Virus record (IMG/VR): IMGVR_UViG_3300025133_000647
Span: 1-22,264 of that record
Source: a virus
DNA length: 22,264 nt
Strand: one strand, 5' to 3'
Part shown: positions 6,157 to 21,025 of the stretch, in pieces
Position numbering within the stretch: position 1 is the first letter of the stretch
Layout: every line of letters begins with the position of its first letter
The notes under the pieces: generated by a model
What the model saw: the letters and a program-made list of their open reading frames with translations, nothing else
Databases searched by the model: none
Told to the model about the DNA's origin: nothing
Program-made: the position numbers and the translations under genes

Positions 6157-7611
6157 ATGCCAAATACATATGGTGCCGGAACTGCAACACAGTTCTCTGA
6201 CGGCACACAAAGGCAAGTACTCGAATTAGGTCCAAAGATTTATTATTACAATGAATCCGTAACACCTTTGCTATCTATTTCTGGTCGTGCAGGCACAGTT
6301 GGAACTCCTGTACCGATTTTTGAATGGATGGAAGACGAGTACTTCATTAAAAGAAGTATCAAAACTGAAATTACAAGCACAGATGTAACTGATACTGCAA
6401 CTGCTGGAATTAATGGCGATAATGCTATTGTTAAATTCCGCAGACAAGCACAGGTAGAAGCATTTGAAGTTGGTGGAATTTATGCTGCATCTGTAGCTGG
6501 TGGTTCTGCTGCTTTAACAACTGCTGTAACACACTTTATTTGTGTTGCAATAGGTAAAGATGTTAACCTAGCAAGTCCAAGTGATAAGCATGTTCAATTT
6601 TTAAGTGCGCACAAGCACGCATCATTGAATGCTTATAATGTTGAAGCTGTAGCTGATGGTACTGATATGATTACTGCTGACGCTTCCGGTGTTCTTACCT
6701 TAACATACGTTGCAACCGCTGGTCAATTTTATGACAACGCTGTAGCAACTACTTACTATGGAAATGACCCAATGGGATTTGGCGAAGTTAATTTTGCTGA
6801 TGCCGATTATTTCATGGTAGCGGGTGGTAATGGTGAGTACGCTGAAGGTGCTGCTGTTGGTTCTGAAACTCGTAAAAAAGTTCGTAGATTAAAGAATTGT
6901 ACGCAAATCTTTCGCGAGCCTTATACGATTACAAGAACAGCTAGAGTGTCTGACCAATATGGCGGACCAGAACTAGCAAGACTGCAAGCGCGTAAGCTAG
7001 CACAAATTAAAGCAAACGTAGAATACGCTATGCTTTTTAATGGTGCAATTAGCTTAGATGCAACCTCTGCTAACCCTAAAAGAACCTTTGCAGGTTTAGG
7101 TGTTGGTGGAACTGCTGGTGTTATTCAAACTAATAATGCTGATATTGATTCATCATTACAGTTAAATAACTCAAGTGGTACTCAAGCGCATTTTGATGCT
7201 GTAATAGAACATATTTTCCAAGATACAATTGATGGTTCAATGGAAAAGACTGTTTTTGCTTCAAACAAATGGCTATTGAAACTTACAGCAATGGTTCGTG
7301 CTGACTCTTCTAGCAATATAAATGCAATGATGGGCGAAGAAGAAAAAGCTGGATTAAGAGTAATGAGTTATATGGGACCAGTTGGTACATTAAACTTTAT
7401 TCCTCATCCTTTCCTAAAAGGTGCTTATGAAGATTATGCAGTAGCTGTTGACTTTGCTAACTTTGATGCGCGTGTCTTAGCCGAATCTGATTTTCAGCTT
7501 CGCAGAGATATCGTTCAAGATGGTAGTGATGGTCAAACAGACGAGTGGTTAGTTGAGGCAGGTCCTGAGATTCGTCAGGAACAAACTCATGCAATCATGA
7601 AGCTTGTGTAA
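6157..7611 (+). CDS. Major capsid protein, SU10/DUF5309-like
   Basis: The 484-residue protein is the probable HK97-fold shell subunit. Supporting text includes LGPKIYYYNESVTPLLSI near the N-terminus (residues 24-41), EVNFADADYF, and RRLKNCTQIFREPYTITRTA followed by SDQYGGPELARLQARKLAQI and NVEYAMLFNG. The block 'tQIFr...T.tar...G.elar..a..l..i...vEya.lnG' is typical of the DUF5309 capsid family that includes phage SU10. The C-terminal half contains an IEHIFQDTIDGSMEKTVFAS segment and ends in RQEQTHAIMKLV. It has the strongest-looking ribosome site in the window (AGGAG 6144-6148, eight bases from ATG), as expected for the most abundant virion protein, and it is followed by a stable hairpin. 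Confidence 0.92.
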   Translation: MPNTYGAGTATQFSDGTQRQVLELGPKIYYYNESVTPLLSISGRAGTVGTPVPIFEWMEDEYFIKRSIKTEITSTDVTDTATAGINGDNAIVKFRRQAQVEAFEVGGIYAASVAGGSAALTTAVTHFICVAIGKDVNLASPSDKHVQFLSAHKHASLNAYNVEAVADGTDMITADASGVLTLTYVATAGQFYDNAVATTYYGNDPMGFGEVNFADADYFMVAGGNGEYAEGAAVGSETRKKVRRLKNCTQIFREPYTITRTARVSDQYGGPELARLQARKLAQIKANVEYAMLFNGAISLDATSANPKRTFAGLGVGGTAGVIQTNNADIDSSLQLNNSSGTQAHFDAVIEHIFQDTIDGSMEKTVFASNKWLLKLTAMVRADSSSNINAMMGEEEKAGLRVMSYMGPVGTLNFIPHPFLKGAYEDYAVAVDFANFDARVLAESDFQLRRDIVQDGSDGQTDEWLVEAGPEIRQEQTHAIMKLV

Positions 7612-7620
7612 ATAATAGTG

Positions 7621-7645
7621 TAGGGGGGTAATTTTTACCCCCCTA
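7621..7645 (+). terminator. G/C hairpin after the capsid gene
   Basis: TAGGGGGGTAA and TTACCCCCCTA form a perfect 11-bp stem with a TTT loop, starting nine bases after the capsid stop. Six consecutive G-C pairs are striking in such A/T-rich DNA. No T-run follows, so this is not a complete intrinsic terminator. It may act as a leaky terminator, an RNase-resistant 3' end that stabilises capsid mRNA, or a processing site. Phage T7 has a partial terminator just after its capsid gene, an analogous position. Confidence 0.6.
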
Positions 7646-7662
7646 ATACTTAAAGGTTTAAA

Positions 7663-7831
7663 ATGACTGAACAAGAAAAAAAGAAATTAAAATGGTAAGA
7701 ATATTGCTAAAGGAAAAACATCTGCTGCATATTGGGCAAATAAACTTTTTTGGGCAGGTAAAGGTGGGAGCAAAAAAAGTCCACCTAAATCACAAAAGCA
7801 TGTAAAAGGAATAAGGAGACGTAAAGCGTAA
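7663..7831 (+). CDS. Small basic protein in two frames (frameshift)
   Basis: ATG 7663 has a good ribosome site (AAAGG 7652-7656, six bases upstream), but its frame reads only MTEQEKKKLKW before TAA at 7696-7698. The +1 frame is open from 7691 and reads NGKNIAKGKTSAAYWANKLF (20 residues), then a Gly/Lys/Pro-rich basic tail ending IRRRKA. It stops at 7829-7831, overlapping the next ATG as TAATG. This second part has no ATG, GTG or TTG but looks coding. Joining the two gives about 55-56 residues (…KKL[K]NGKNIAKGK…), a compact, strongly basic protein of unknown function. Possible causes are +1 or -2 frameshifting, a natural disabling indel, or an assembly error. Its position after the capsid gene suggests a small virion or assembly factor. 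Confidence 0.5.
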
Positions 7832-8724
7832 TGAGATATCAAGAAGCATACGAAATGGTTGAAGCCGGTTTAAGTAAATCAGCTTTAGGATTTCCAATTA
7901 CAGAGCCTTTAATATCTAGTTTTTTTGATAATAAAGTTCAAGAGGTTGGAGGAAGAGTGGTAAGGAAAAGAAGTTCACAAGAACTATCTACTACTACTAC
8001 AAATGTTTATACATTAACCAATGAAGATGCTAGCATGAGAATATATAAAGTTACGCTTATTGGTAGTAGCGACAGCAAGACTGTTCCTTATGTTAGTGAA
8101 AAAAGATATGCAGAGGGTGCAGATGAAGACACTATACAGAATATTGGTTATTTTGTTAGTGAAGAAAATTCAAGTACTGGCACTATTACAGGTGCAACAA
8201 GTGCCAATCCAATAGTTATTACAAGTAGCTCTCATGGATTAGAGACTGGTGATAAAGTAAAAATAACTGGTATTGTTGGATTGCTTTCTGGTACAGGTGC
8301 TAAAAGTGAAGTTAATGATGTTGTTCATGAGATTACAGTAACAAGTGCAAATGCATTTTCAATTCCAGTTAAAGGCGCTGCTTATGGAACTGCTTATGGA
8401 AGTGCAGGAGCTTGGACCTCAAAAGATATAAAATTAACATTAACTAAAACACCTGATTCTGGAAGTACCTTAAAAGTTTATTATTATGCAAATCCTATGA
8501 CTAAAAATGCAATTACAGATGGAGTAGATTTGCCTGACCAATTAATACCAGCTTGCGTACATTATTCGTTAGCTCATTTTTTATTTTTAGATGGTCAAAT
8601 GCAAATGGGTAGCGGACATTATGGATTAGCAGAAAAAATAGAAAAAGAATTTATAGAGACAAGAAATTCAAGAGAGGCTAAACCAGATATTATACCACCA
8701 CCATTACAGGACTTTATATTCTAA
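7831..8724 (+). CDS. Head-tail adaptor-like protein with FCCH-type insert
   Basis: This 297-residue protein lies where the head-tail adaptor is expected. Residues 1-110 contain a helical start, then a beta region (TNVYTLTNEDASMRIYKVTL). Residues about 116-196 read as an inserted beta module (NPIVITSSSHGLETGDKVKI, then FSIPVKGA) typical of the 'FCCH-like' domain often found in phage structural proteins. After it the first domain appears to resume (KLTLTKTPDSGSTLKVYYYA), followed by the helix DGVDLPDQLIPACVHYSLAH and a charged C-terminal helix. The start overlaps the stop of the frameshifted small gene; AGGAG at 7814-7818 is 12 bases upstream. It could instead be another tail component, but an enzyme role is not suggested. 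Confidence 0.65.
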   Translation: MRYQEAYEMVEAGLSKSALGFPITEPLISSFFDNKVQEVGGRVVRKRSSQELSTTTTNVYTLTNEDASMRIYKVTLIGSSDSKTVPYVSEKRYAEGADEDTIQNIGYFVSEENSSTGTITGATSANPIVITSSSHGLETGDKVKITGIVGLLSGTGAKSEVNDVVHEITVTSANAFSIPVKGAAYGTAYGSAGAWTSKDIKLTLTKTPDSGSTLKVYYYANPMTKNAITDGVDLPDQLIPACVHYSLAHFLFLDGQMQMGSGHYGLAEKIEKEFIETRNSREAKPDIIPPPLQDFIF

Positions 8725-10079
8725 TGAGTACATTTAAAGTAAGAATAGAAGATTATGTTGGGGCAGTAGGTGACGACACTTTTCTAGGTGACGCACTTAC
8801 TGACACAGCAGCAGAAATTATAAGAGCAATACCTGACGATAAGGTTAAAAGTTTTACACAAGAATCTGGAGATATATCAGCAGCTTCTACAAATATAGCT
8901 AATCATAGAATAGTTAGTGTTATTAGAGAACGAGGTACAGATGGAGAGTATGTTGAGTGCAGGGAATTGCCTGTAAAGTATTTTAGAAAAGTTCAAGACT
9001 CTTCAAGCATGTTTGCTGCTAGCGTTGAATCTCCTGTATATATTATTAAGAATAGTTCTATACATGTATTTCCAACTCCTGGAGCAAGTCCAAATTGTTT
9101 TAAAGTTGAAAGTGTTACATTTCCAACTGTAGCTGCAAGTGCTTCAAATATAACGGATAGTCCAGTAGACCCGTTTCCAAACAGTATGGAAGATATGGTT
9201 GTTGTTGGTGCTAGCTCAAAAGCATGTCAATATTTAATGGCTAGAGTAAAAGATTCTATGCCTTCAGAACCTGTTTTAGTACTAGATGATATTACAGTAC
9301 CTATTACACCTAGCAACCCTACTATATCTTTTTCAAATGCAACCATAGGTGATGGGGTTAGTGTTGCTGTAGACTCAATAACTGTAGCTCCTGAAAATGC
9401 AAGTGCTACAAGTTCTACTGGTAGTGGAGATTCTGCTTATACAAAACCTAGTTTACAAGGAACTTCAGACGATTTAACAGATGTTACTGGTGGAACATTT
9501 GGAAGCCCTGCTGTAGATTATGCTACTTGGTGGGATACATTATCAGATATTATAGAAACAGAAGAAGACTCTGAATTAGCTACAGTACAAGTTGCTAAGA
9601 TTAGAAGTTATATAGAAGCTTTTAATGCAGAGGTAAACAGCGCAAGAAATGCAATGCAAGCAACAATTGAAGATGCTAGACTATCAACTCAAGCTAGCAT
9701 AGCTACTGCTGGAGATGCAACACAAGCTTCAATAGCAAATGCTTCTAATGATGTTAATGCTTCTATTTCAAAGATGAGAGAAAGCACAGGAGCTGCAATA
9801 GCAAAAATGTCACAAAGTACTAATGTTAATATTTCAAATGCTGCTAAAACTTTAGAGTCTTCAATACAGGATTACAGTTTAGAAGTAAGTAAATTTGGAA
9901 CAGATATACAAAGATATACTTCTGAAGTAAATACAGCGATTAATGAATACTCAACTGATATACAAAAATATACAGCACAAGTTGATAGATATACTAAAGA
10001 GTATAGTTGGTATCAAGACCAATATATTAGACTTGACGCAAAATTTAAAGAATCATTACAAGTGTTGATTGCTAATTAA
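8724..10079 (+). CDS. Virion protein with adaptor-like head and coiled-coil tail
   Basis: The 451-residue product has three parts. Residues 1-180 resemble adaptor or tail-completion proteins: a helical start (DYVGAVGDDTFLGDALTDTA), beta strands with SPVYIIKNSSIHVFPTPG (103-120), then DPFPNSMEDMVVVGASSKAC (149-168). Residues about 185-265 are a Ser/Thr/Pro-rich linker. Residues about 268-451 form a long helix rich in Ala, Ser, Asn and Gln with regular hydrophobic spacing, a probable coiled coil. Similar three-part proteins are common in uncultured marine phages and have no experimentally known role that I can name. It starts on the stop of the previous gene (TAATG) with no good ribosome site, so translation is probably coupled. 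Confidence 0.65.
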   Translation: MSTFKVRIEDYVGAVGDDTFLGDALTDTAAEIIRAIPDDKVKSFTQESGDISAASTNIANHRIVSVIRERGTDGEYVECRELPVKYFRKVQDSSSMFAASVESPVYIIKNSSIHVFPTPGASPNCFKVESVTFPTVAASASNITDSPVDPFPNSMEDMVVVGASSKACQYLMARVKDSMPSEPVLVLDDITVPITPSNPTISFSNATIGDGVSVAVDSITVAPENASATSSTGSGDSAYTKPSLQGTSDDLTDVTGGTFGSPAVDYATWWDTLSDIIETEEDSELATVQVAKIRSYIEAFNAEVNSARNAMQATIEDARLSTQASIATAGDATQASIANASNDVNASISKMRESTGAAIAKMSQSTNVNISNAAKTLESSIQDYSLEVSKFGTDIQRYTSEVNTAINEYSTDIQKYTAQVDRYTKEYSWYQDQYIRLDAKFKESLQVLIAN

Positions 10080-20918: not shown

Positions 20919-21025
20919 TTATTGAATAAATAACTTTGCTAGCAAATGCTAGCGTGTATAAATTAACCCATTGGAAGAACGTCTAATACGTTTAATTCCA
21001 TGAAAATTTAAAAAGGAAAGAAGAT
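20919..21025 (+). promoter_or_regulatory. Intergenic gap with inverted repeats
   Basis: This is the longest noncoding stretch (107 bases). It holds a 12-base palindrome TTTGCTAGCAAA (20935-20946) that overlaps a GCTAGC-AAAT-GCTAGC hairpin (20938-20953), and a second small hairpin AACGT-CTAAT-ACGTT (20978-20992). No T-run follows either, so a classic terminator is not supported. TATAAA at 20957-20962 could be a -10 box, with only a poor TTGCTA 15 bases upstream. AAGGA at 21013-21017 is the ribosome site of the next gene. It separates the ejection-protein run from the appendage genes, a sensible place for a promoter, operator or RNA-processing site. Confidence 0.4.

Follow-up and report, generated by a model that had tools for sequence, protein, structure and literature searches.

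A covarying hairpin without a U-tract follows the capsid gene in a clade of SU10-type podoviruses

We describe a G/C-rich hairpin that lies directly downstream of the major capsid protein (MCP) gene throughout an uncultured clade of SU10-type podoviruses, that covaries between relatives, and that lacks the U-tract of an ordinary intrinsic terminator. We give about an even chance to the explanation that this intercistronic hairpin, standing at the 3' end of the capsid message, blocks 3' exonucleases and thereby raises capsid mRNA over the tail genes. Phage virion genes are carried in one operon, yet hundreds of capsid subunits are required per dozen adaptors. Terminators past capsid genes and exonuclease-blocking hairpins within operons are both already known, and in the open-access PMC literature we found no description of a clade-wide, covarying post-capsid hairpin without U residues behind it.

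Results

The window, meaning the whole stretch of DNA that was analysed, comprises 22,264 bp (positions 1 to 22,264 of IMG/VR record IMGVR_UViG_3300025133_000647) with a G+C content of 33.6%. It contains the structural module of a marine SU10-type podovirus, with portal, capsid and adaptor identified by Pfam matches (P22-like portal, PF16510), and all of its recognised genes are on the + strand, as are the features described here. The MCP gene (SU10_MCP type, 484 aa; 6157..7611) was identified from its ORF and from matches to PF17236 (E 4.8e-35) and PHROG 1328, major head protein. Its TAA stop codon (7609-7611) is separated by a 9-nt spacer (7612..7620) from the hairpin (7621-7645), which consists of a G-rich 5' arm TAGGGGGGTAA (7621..7631), a TTT loop (7632..7634) and a C-rich 3' arm TTACCCCCCTA (7635..7645) that covaries with the 5' arm. 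As a preliminary description made from the sequence had stated, the arms form 11 Watson-Crick pairs with no mismatch, including six consecutive G-C pairs, around a 3-base loop. No U-tract follows on the + strand, again in agreement with that description; the 8 nt past the last G-C pair read TAATACTT. A further 17 nt, also without a U-tract (7646..7662), lead to the next ATG at 7663. This ATG opens a 'split gene' (7663..7831), the remnant of a 112-aa gene of the ARKSFKARHGKNIAKGK type, which is followed by the SU10-type adaptor protein gene (297 aa; 7831..8724; PF24175, E 4.6e-07). The hairpin had been placed 18 bases before the split gene; the proximity holds, and the distance is corrected to 17 nt.

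RNA folding of positions 7600-7680 gave -25 kcal/mol with a z score of -3.63, and 1 of 200 shuffles folded equally well. The post-capsid hairpin is the sole Watson-Crick stem in the window with at least 8 pairs and at least 5 G-C pairs (loop of 3-8 nt), compared with a mean of 0.1 such stems in 40 dinucleotide shuffles of the window, none of which contained a stem with at least 11 pairs and at least 6 G-C pairs. Of 1500 random 60-nt segments, which may overlap the 60 nt past the MCP stop, 4 folded as well as that stretch. A tiled scan of the window located one stronger 60-nt fold, the strongest of all, at 8751-8810 (-25.1 kcal/mol), inside the gene after the adaptor, and a second short hairpin, GCTAGCAAATGCTAGC (20938-20953), lies 3' of the stop of a 1592-aa gene. 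No Rfam family matched the window at its gathering score; within 7400-7900, the five matches with E values up to 10 scored 16.7-21.6 bits against gathering scores of 50-219. Stop-codon readthrough was rejected, since the fourth codon past the capsid stop in the window is TAG.

Relatives were collected by scanning viral contigs with the capsid, and the best 80 of 152, with MCPs 58-100% identical, were taken. Together with the window these gave 81 sequences, four of which (L024, L046, L059, L060) end too soon past the MCP stop; the remaining 77 have at least 60 nt past the capsid stop, and among these first 60 nt there are 53 distinct sequences. Our strict criterion was a stem of at least 8 pairs with at least 5 G-C pairs and a loop of 3-8 nt within 60 nt past the MCP stop. 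Such a stem was present in 47 of the 53 distinct sequences (window included, from the best 80 of 152 relatives), whereas the rest of these loci, 508,834 bp in all, contained only 17, or 0.0020 per 60 nt. The six remaining sequences (L049, L051, L061, L062, L067, L076) have a longer loop or, in L076, a 7-bp stem; once these are allowed the hairpin is found in 53 of 53, a count that rests on a criterion loosened after these six had been seen. A chance origin, which the preliminary description had considered very unlikely, was ruled out by the fold z score, the window shuffles and the density of stems among the relatives' loci.

The architecture of the element is uniform, as the G-rich arm (4-8 G, 0-2 C) is always 5' and the C-rich arm (4-7 C, 0-2 G) always 3' in the 53 sequences. 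Apart from this G/C run the arms share no common sequence. The loops of other members are TTTA, GCAA, GTAA, GCGA, TTCG, GAAA or longer. TTCG or GNRA-type tetraloops often cap post-capsid stems (L042, L058, L064 and several roseophage loci such as L126, L160 and L173), and L049, L051 and L067 have a near-identical 21-nt loop (cagagagcaatgcaatcg...) where their sisters have one of 4 nt, with the stem hardly changed. Stems are 7-14 bp long in 52 of the 53 sequences and reach up to 17 pairs in L070. A stable, conserved intercistronic stem of this kind, particularly one as long as that of L070, could be an endonuclease processing site, for example of RNase III type, at which the late transcript is cut past the capsid gene. 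RNase III usually wants roughly two helical turns, however, and 52 of the 53 stems are shorter than this; the arms also offer no shared sequence beyond the G/C run, and we consider processing of this kind very improbable.

The genome collection contributed two further loci, L198 and L199, whose capsids (56% and 48%) were its only matches. Both contigs are binned as Candidatus Marinimicrobia, a weak hint that this group may be the host of the uncultured clade.

The preliminary description had proposed looking for compensatory base changes in related phages, and this check was positive. The 53 sequences reduce to 34 distinct arm pairs; because the sequences are related, the permutation and shuffle fractions obtained from them are counts and not probabilities. 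The arms of each locus pair with one another at 322 of 340 positions, whereas arms permuted among loci paired at a mean of 231 and a maximum of 264, and 0 of 100,000 permutations reached 322. The covariation alignment used 24 of the 34 arm pairs, those that align without gaps, and 94.2% of its cells are paired. These 24 hairpins had a covariation score of 0.590, compared with 0.231 when shuffled (0 of 500 as high) and no more than 0.172 with slid partners. Changes on both sides were seen in 7 of 10 pairs against 5.3 in shuffles, a modest excess (17 of 500 as high), and further pair types numbered 19 against 16.9, with no clear excess (65 of 500 as high). For 14 members aligned with gaps by MAFFT, RNAalifold had returned only three pairs and no double change because the gaps slid the arms, and the arms were therefore anchored at the loop for the covariation tests; MAFFT applied to the 34 distinct arm pairs likewise slid part of them by one column. 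A sister-pair table (64 double, 18 single and 0 broken) was set aside as evidence, because its 'broken' class is zero by construction and differences in loop length shift the register.

The nature of the tolerated mismatches bears on the strand involved. In a search that allowed both mismatches equally, 41 distinct hairpins contained 32 G·U and 4 A·C. A G·U on the + strand is an A·C in the complement, and the comparison therefore indicates that it is base pairing in the plus-strand RNA that is under selection. Any perfect inverted repeat is a dyad in DNA too, and the repeat might instead be a DNA-level signal for protein binding, replication or recombination, or a functionless leftover. The tolerance of G·U over A·C, the lack of common sequence in the arms besides the G/C run and the presence of the hairpin in every relative read all argue against this, and we rate it the least probable of the readings considered. 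Viewed from the minus strand the dyad fits a loose terminator pattern; no recognised gene is on that strand here.

We then compared what lies downstream of the hairpin. The first ORF past it (an ATG frame of at least 28 codons) belongs to at least four kinds of gene in the 53 sequences: 23 encode TYGTG peptides, 11 are ARKSFKARH genes, 9 are fibre-like, 3 are the adaptor and 7 are other, the last including L009, which has an ARKSFKARH-like start on a contig that ends. In the window the ATG at 7663 is 168 nt from the adaptor ATG, compared with 338 nt in L005, a loss of approximately 170 bp that disrupts the frame. By this comparison the split gene is an out-of-frame deletion remnant of the 112-aa ARKSFKARH gene, of which L005 and L015, among other relatives, have an intact copy. 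The remnant is also present in L001, 99.5% identical to the window over 11.2 kb; in L006 most of the gene is gone. Because the downstream gene varies while the hairpin is constant, the comparison assigns the hairpin to the capsid message and not to the split gene. An influence on translation of the split gene, which had been suggested earlier, is not supported by these observations, and we rejected it as the main function.

A more general translational element, controlling whether ribosomes pass or re-initiate on the way from the capsid stop to the next start codon, has some appeal. The stem is close to the capsid stop, and the first ATG with a frame of at least 28 codons follows the stem by just 6-12 nt in 25 of the 53 sequences, so that the stem would touch the ribosome binding site. 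However, the hairpin persists when the next gene is of another kind, is broken (in the window) or is mostly lost (in L006), and the ATG is 28-68 nt away in L006, L034, L043, L062, L070, L076 and L079. We consider such a role quite unlikely.

The TYGTG peptides, which start TYGTGATxFSDGSSR and occur past the hairpin in L021, L025, L033 and others, are 36-50 aa long and very basic. Their start resembles the capsid N-terminus (TYGAGTATQFSDGTQR). The window has a similar 38-aa ORF (MRFTDGTSRLMTTL...; 1249-1365), placed upstream of the terminase instead.

The absence of a U-tract proved to be a property of the clade. We counted U residues behind 51 window-clade hairpins, comprising 49 distinct members of the 53 and the two loci from metagenome-assembled genomes, L198 and L199. 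None of the 51 reaches 6 U within the 8 nt past the last G-C pair. Their mean of 2.96 is slightly higher than the background of 2.27 per 8 nt in the same loci, and two of the 51, L006 and L017, have a run of 4 U within 12 nt; weak termination may therefore occur. By contrast, hairpins of the roseophage clade have a mean of 5.46 U of 8, with at least 6 in 27 of 46, and 3 of 5 in the ABTNL-3 clade have at least 6 U of 8. The stem is also closer to the stop codon in the window clade (spacer 4-32 nt, median 13, in the 51 members) than in the roseophage clade (median 29 nt).

A contrast was also seen within genomes. Six of the eight long window-clade relatives have intergenic hairpins elsewhere that are followed by 7-8 U in 8 nt. 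Behind the post-MCP hairpin the count is 1-5 in each of the eight. U-tract terminators therefore appear, from these hairpins, to be in use in most of the long relatives' genomes, though not behind the capsid gene. This contrast comprises few independent cases, because G001 and G002 are near relatives with the same hairpins, and because G006 has no U-tract hairpin elsewhere and G008 only one, with 5 U.

Searches with two distant MCPs each found 24 named phages, of which 10 were taken, the other 14 being Pseudomonas phages. For the three distant named phages measured, the MCP is 22-23% identical to that of the window. A hairpin is present at the post-MCP site in 10 of the 10 records, 9 of them distinct since the PaP2 and 119X intergenic sequences are identical. 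A U-run follows in 6 of these 9, namely Vibrio phage ABTNL-3, Roseobacter phage CRP-810, PaP2/119X, EBPR podovirus 3, Aeromonas phage P5 and, with a shorter run, Tiera. In Kuura, Mel-JY34 and the Desulfofustis phage the U-run is weak or missing. In EBPR podovirus 3, Tiera and Aeromonas phage P5 the stem is interrupted and was recognised from the fold, having been missed by the simple finder. A second scan for relatives kept the best 80 of 95. From 88 further loci the partial L197 (26% identity) was left out, and 61 distinct ones, mostly of the roseophage clade, were compared. All 61 have a stem of at least 7 pairs within 90 nt past the MCP stop, although that of L165, 7 bp long and located at the stop codon, is doubtful; the criterion here (at least 7 pairs, at least 4 G-C, within 90 nt) was looser than the strict one, to which alone the density control applies.

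The main rival to an exonuclease block is a leaky intrinsic terminator without a U-tract, in which the hairpin would stop or pause part of the polymerases past the capsid gene. Several observations are in its favour. U-run hairpins occupy the same site in six of the nine distinct distant phages and in 27 of the 46 roseophage-clade cases, and T7 has Tphi at that place, 48 nt past the end of the gene 10B reading frame in the T7 record. Actinophage phiC31 reportedly has terminators without poly-U tails (Ingham, 1995). LUZ100 has an apparently strong terminator directly past its MCP gene (PMC10134795), and a putative intra-operon terminator ends the procapsid module of phage L (PMC8022706). However, of two features of an intrinsic terminator, the window has the G/C-rich hairpin past a gene and not the U-tract directly after the stem, all 51 clade members lack the tract by the 6-of-8 criterion, and six of the eight long relatives carry hairpins with 7-8 U elsewhere. 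The short distance between stop and stem also argues against efficient termination, by analogy with the E. coli terminator tR2, which is almost completely repressed when several bp past a translated gene and gains efficiency with distance (PMC4824070). An ordinary terminator is thus not supported, because the U-tract is absent clade-wide and the stem is a median of 13 nt from the stop, and we regard leaky termination as possible but on balance doubtful. The T7-like capsid terminator invoked in the preliminary description consequently stands with respect to position, as both Tphi and the distant U-tract hairpins show, and lacks support with respect to its being an ordinary terminator. In SU10 itself, terminators are predicted among the late genes (PMC4281155).

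We also considered a translation-gated switch. As a ribosome on the capsid stop codon can reach the start of the stem, the hairpin could be held open while the capsid gene is translated, permitting read-through to the tail genes, and shut when ribosomes leave, ending and protecting the capsid message. We judge this unlikely. If this is true, loss of the U-tract and a shift of the stem closer to the stop codon would, across a whole uncultured clade, have converted a capsid terminator inherited from an ancestor into a device that senses ribosomes and sets head-to-tail stoichiometry.

Discussion

Capsid protein is needed in excess over adaptor. Under the exonuclease-blocking explanation, the best supported of the mechanisms considered, the late structural genes would be transcribed together, and the downstream RNA would be cut or would end farther on; we assume here that downstream cleavage or Rho termination takes place in the host. 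Exonucleases working 3' to 5' would then trim the RNA back and halt at the hairpin; the capsid mRNA would be stable and the tail-gene portion would be degraded, so that one operon could yield capsid in excess of adaptor and tail protein. The site shares two features with elements of the galE and puf kind, namely a stable stem between two genes of the same direction and base pairing under selection in the transcribed strand.

The closest experimental precedent is the galE hairpin of the E. coli gal operon. Its stem of 8 bp with a 4-nt loop blocks exonucleases and sets operon polarity (PMC11925234, PMC9239205). Transcripts whose ends are generated farther downstream, by Rho or by RNase E, are shortened as far as the hairpin, and the message of the upstream gene is thereby stabilised; the 3' ends disappear when the bottom pair of the stem is broken and return when it is re-paired. 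By analogy with galE (PMC11925234), the capsid mRNA 3' end would be expected approximately 5-10 nt past the stem, at about 7650-7655. It has also been proposed that a galE-type stem can prolong a polymerase pause (PMC9239205), and a mixed role for the capsid hairpin is therefore possible.

That distant relatives have U-tract hairpins at this position speaks for an ancestral hairpin with a role in transcription. The window-clade hairpin most likely descends from a post-capsid intrinsic terminator at this site, with the U-tract retained in several of those relatives. Since the hairpin is selected yet without a U-tract in the clade, nature seems to have separated termination of transcription from protection of the 3' end, which are the two tasks of a terminator hairpin. 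Members with and without the U-tract at one site thereby offer a direct comparison of which job matters for capsid dosage.

Among known systems, T7 Tphi resembles the window hairpin in lying directly past the capsid gene and ahead of the tail genes. Tphi serves a phage RNA polymerase and has a U-run. T7-type termination by a phage polymerase found no support here: a search for a T7-like RNA polymerase (PF00940), positive in T7, gave no match in 12 long relatives, whose sequences are possibly incomplete. The distant phages with an SU10-type MCP (ABTNL-3, CRP-810, PaP2 and Aeromonas phage P5) share the hairpin, the MCP family and the site, and ABTNL-3, CRP-810 and most of the roseophage clade also have a G-run in the 5' arm, like the window clade; they differ from it in the U-run of those distant phages and in the greater distance of the roseophage-clade stem from the stop. 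An intercistronic stem-loop of puf, a bacterial photosynthesis operon, is said to act as an mRNA decay terminator (Chen, 1988). It is likewise an intercistronic stem in an operon and reportedly tied to mRNA stability. Like the capsid hairpin, that of galE is a stable G/C stem inside an operon; it differs in being on the E. coli chromosome, approximately 130 nt past the stop codon and inside the next gene. The galE block has been shown by experiment, whereas the capsid hairpin is known from its anatomy and covariation.
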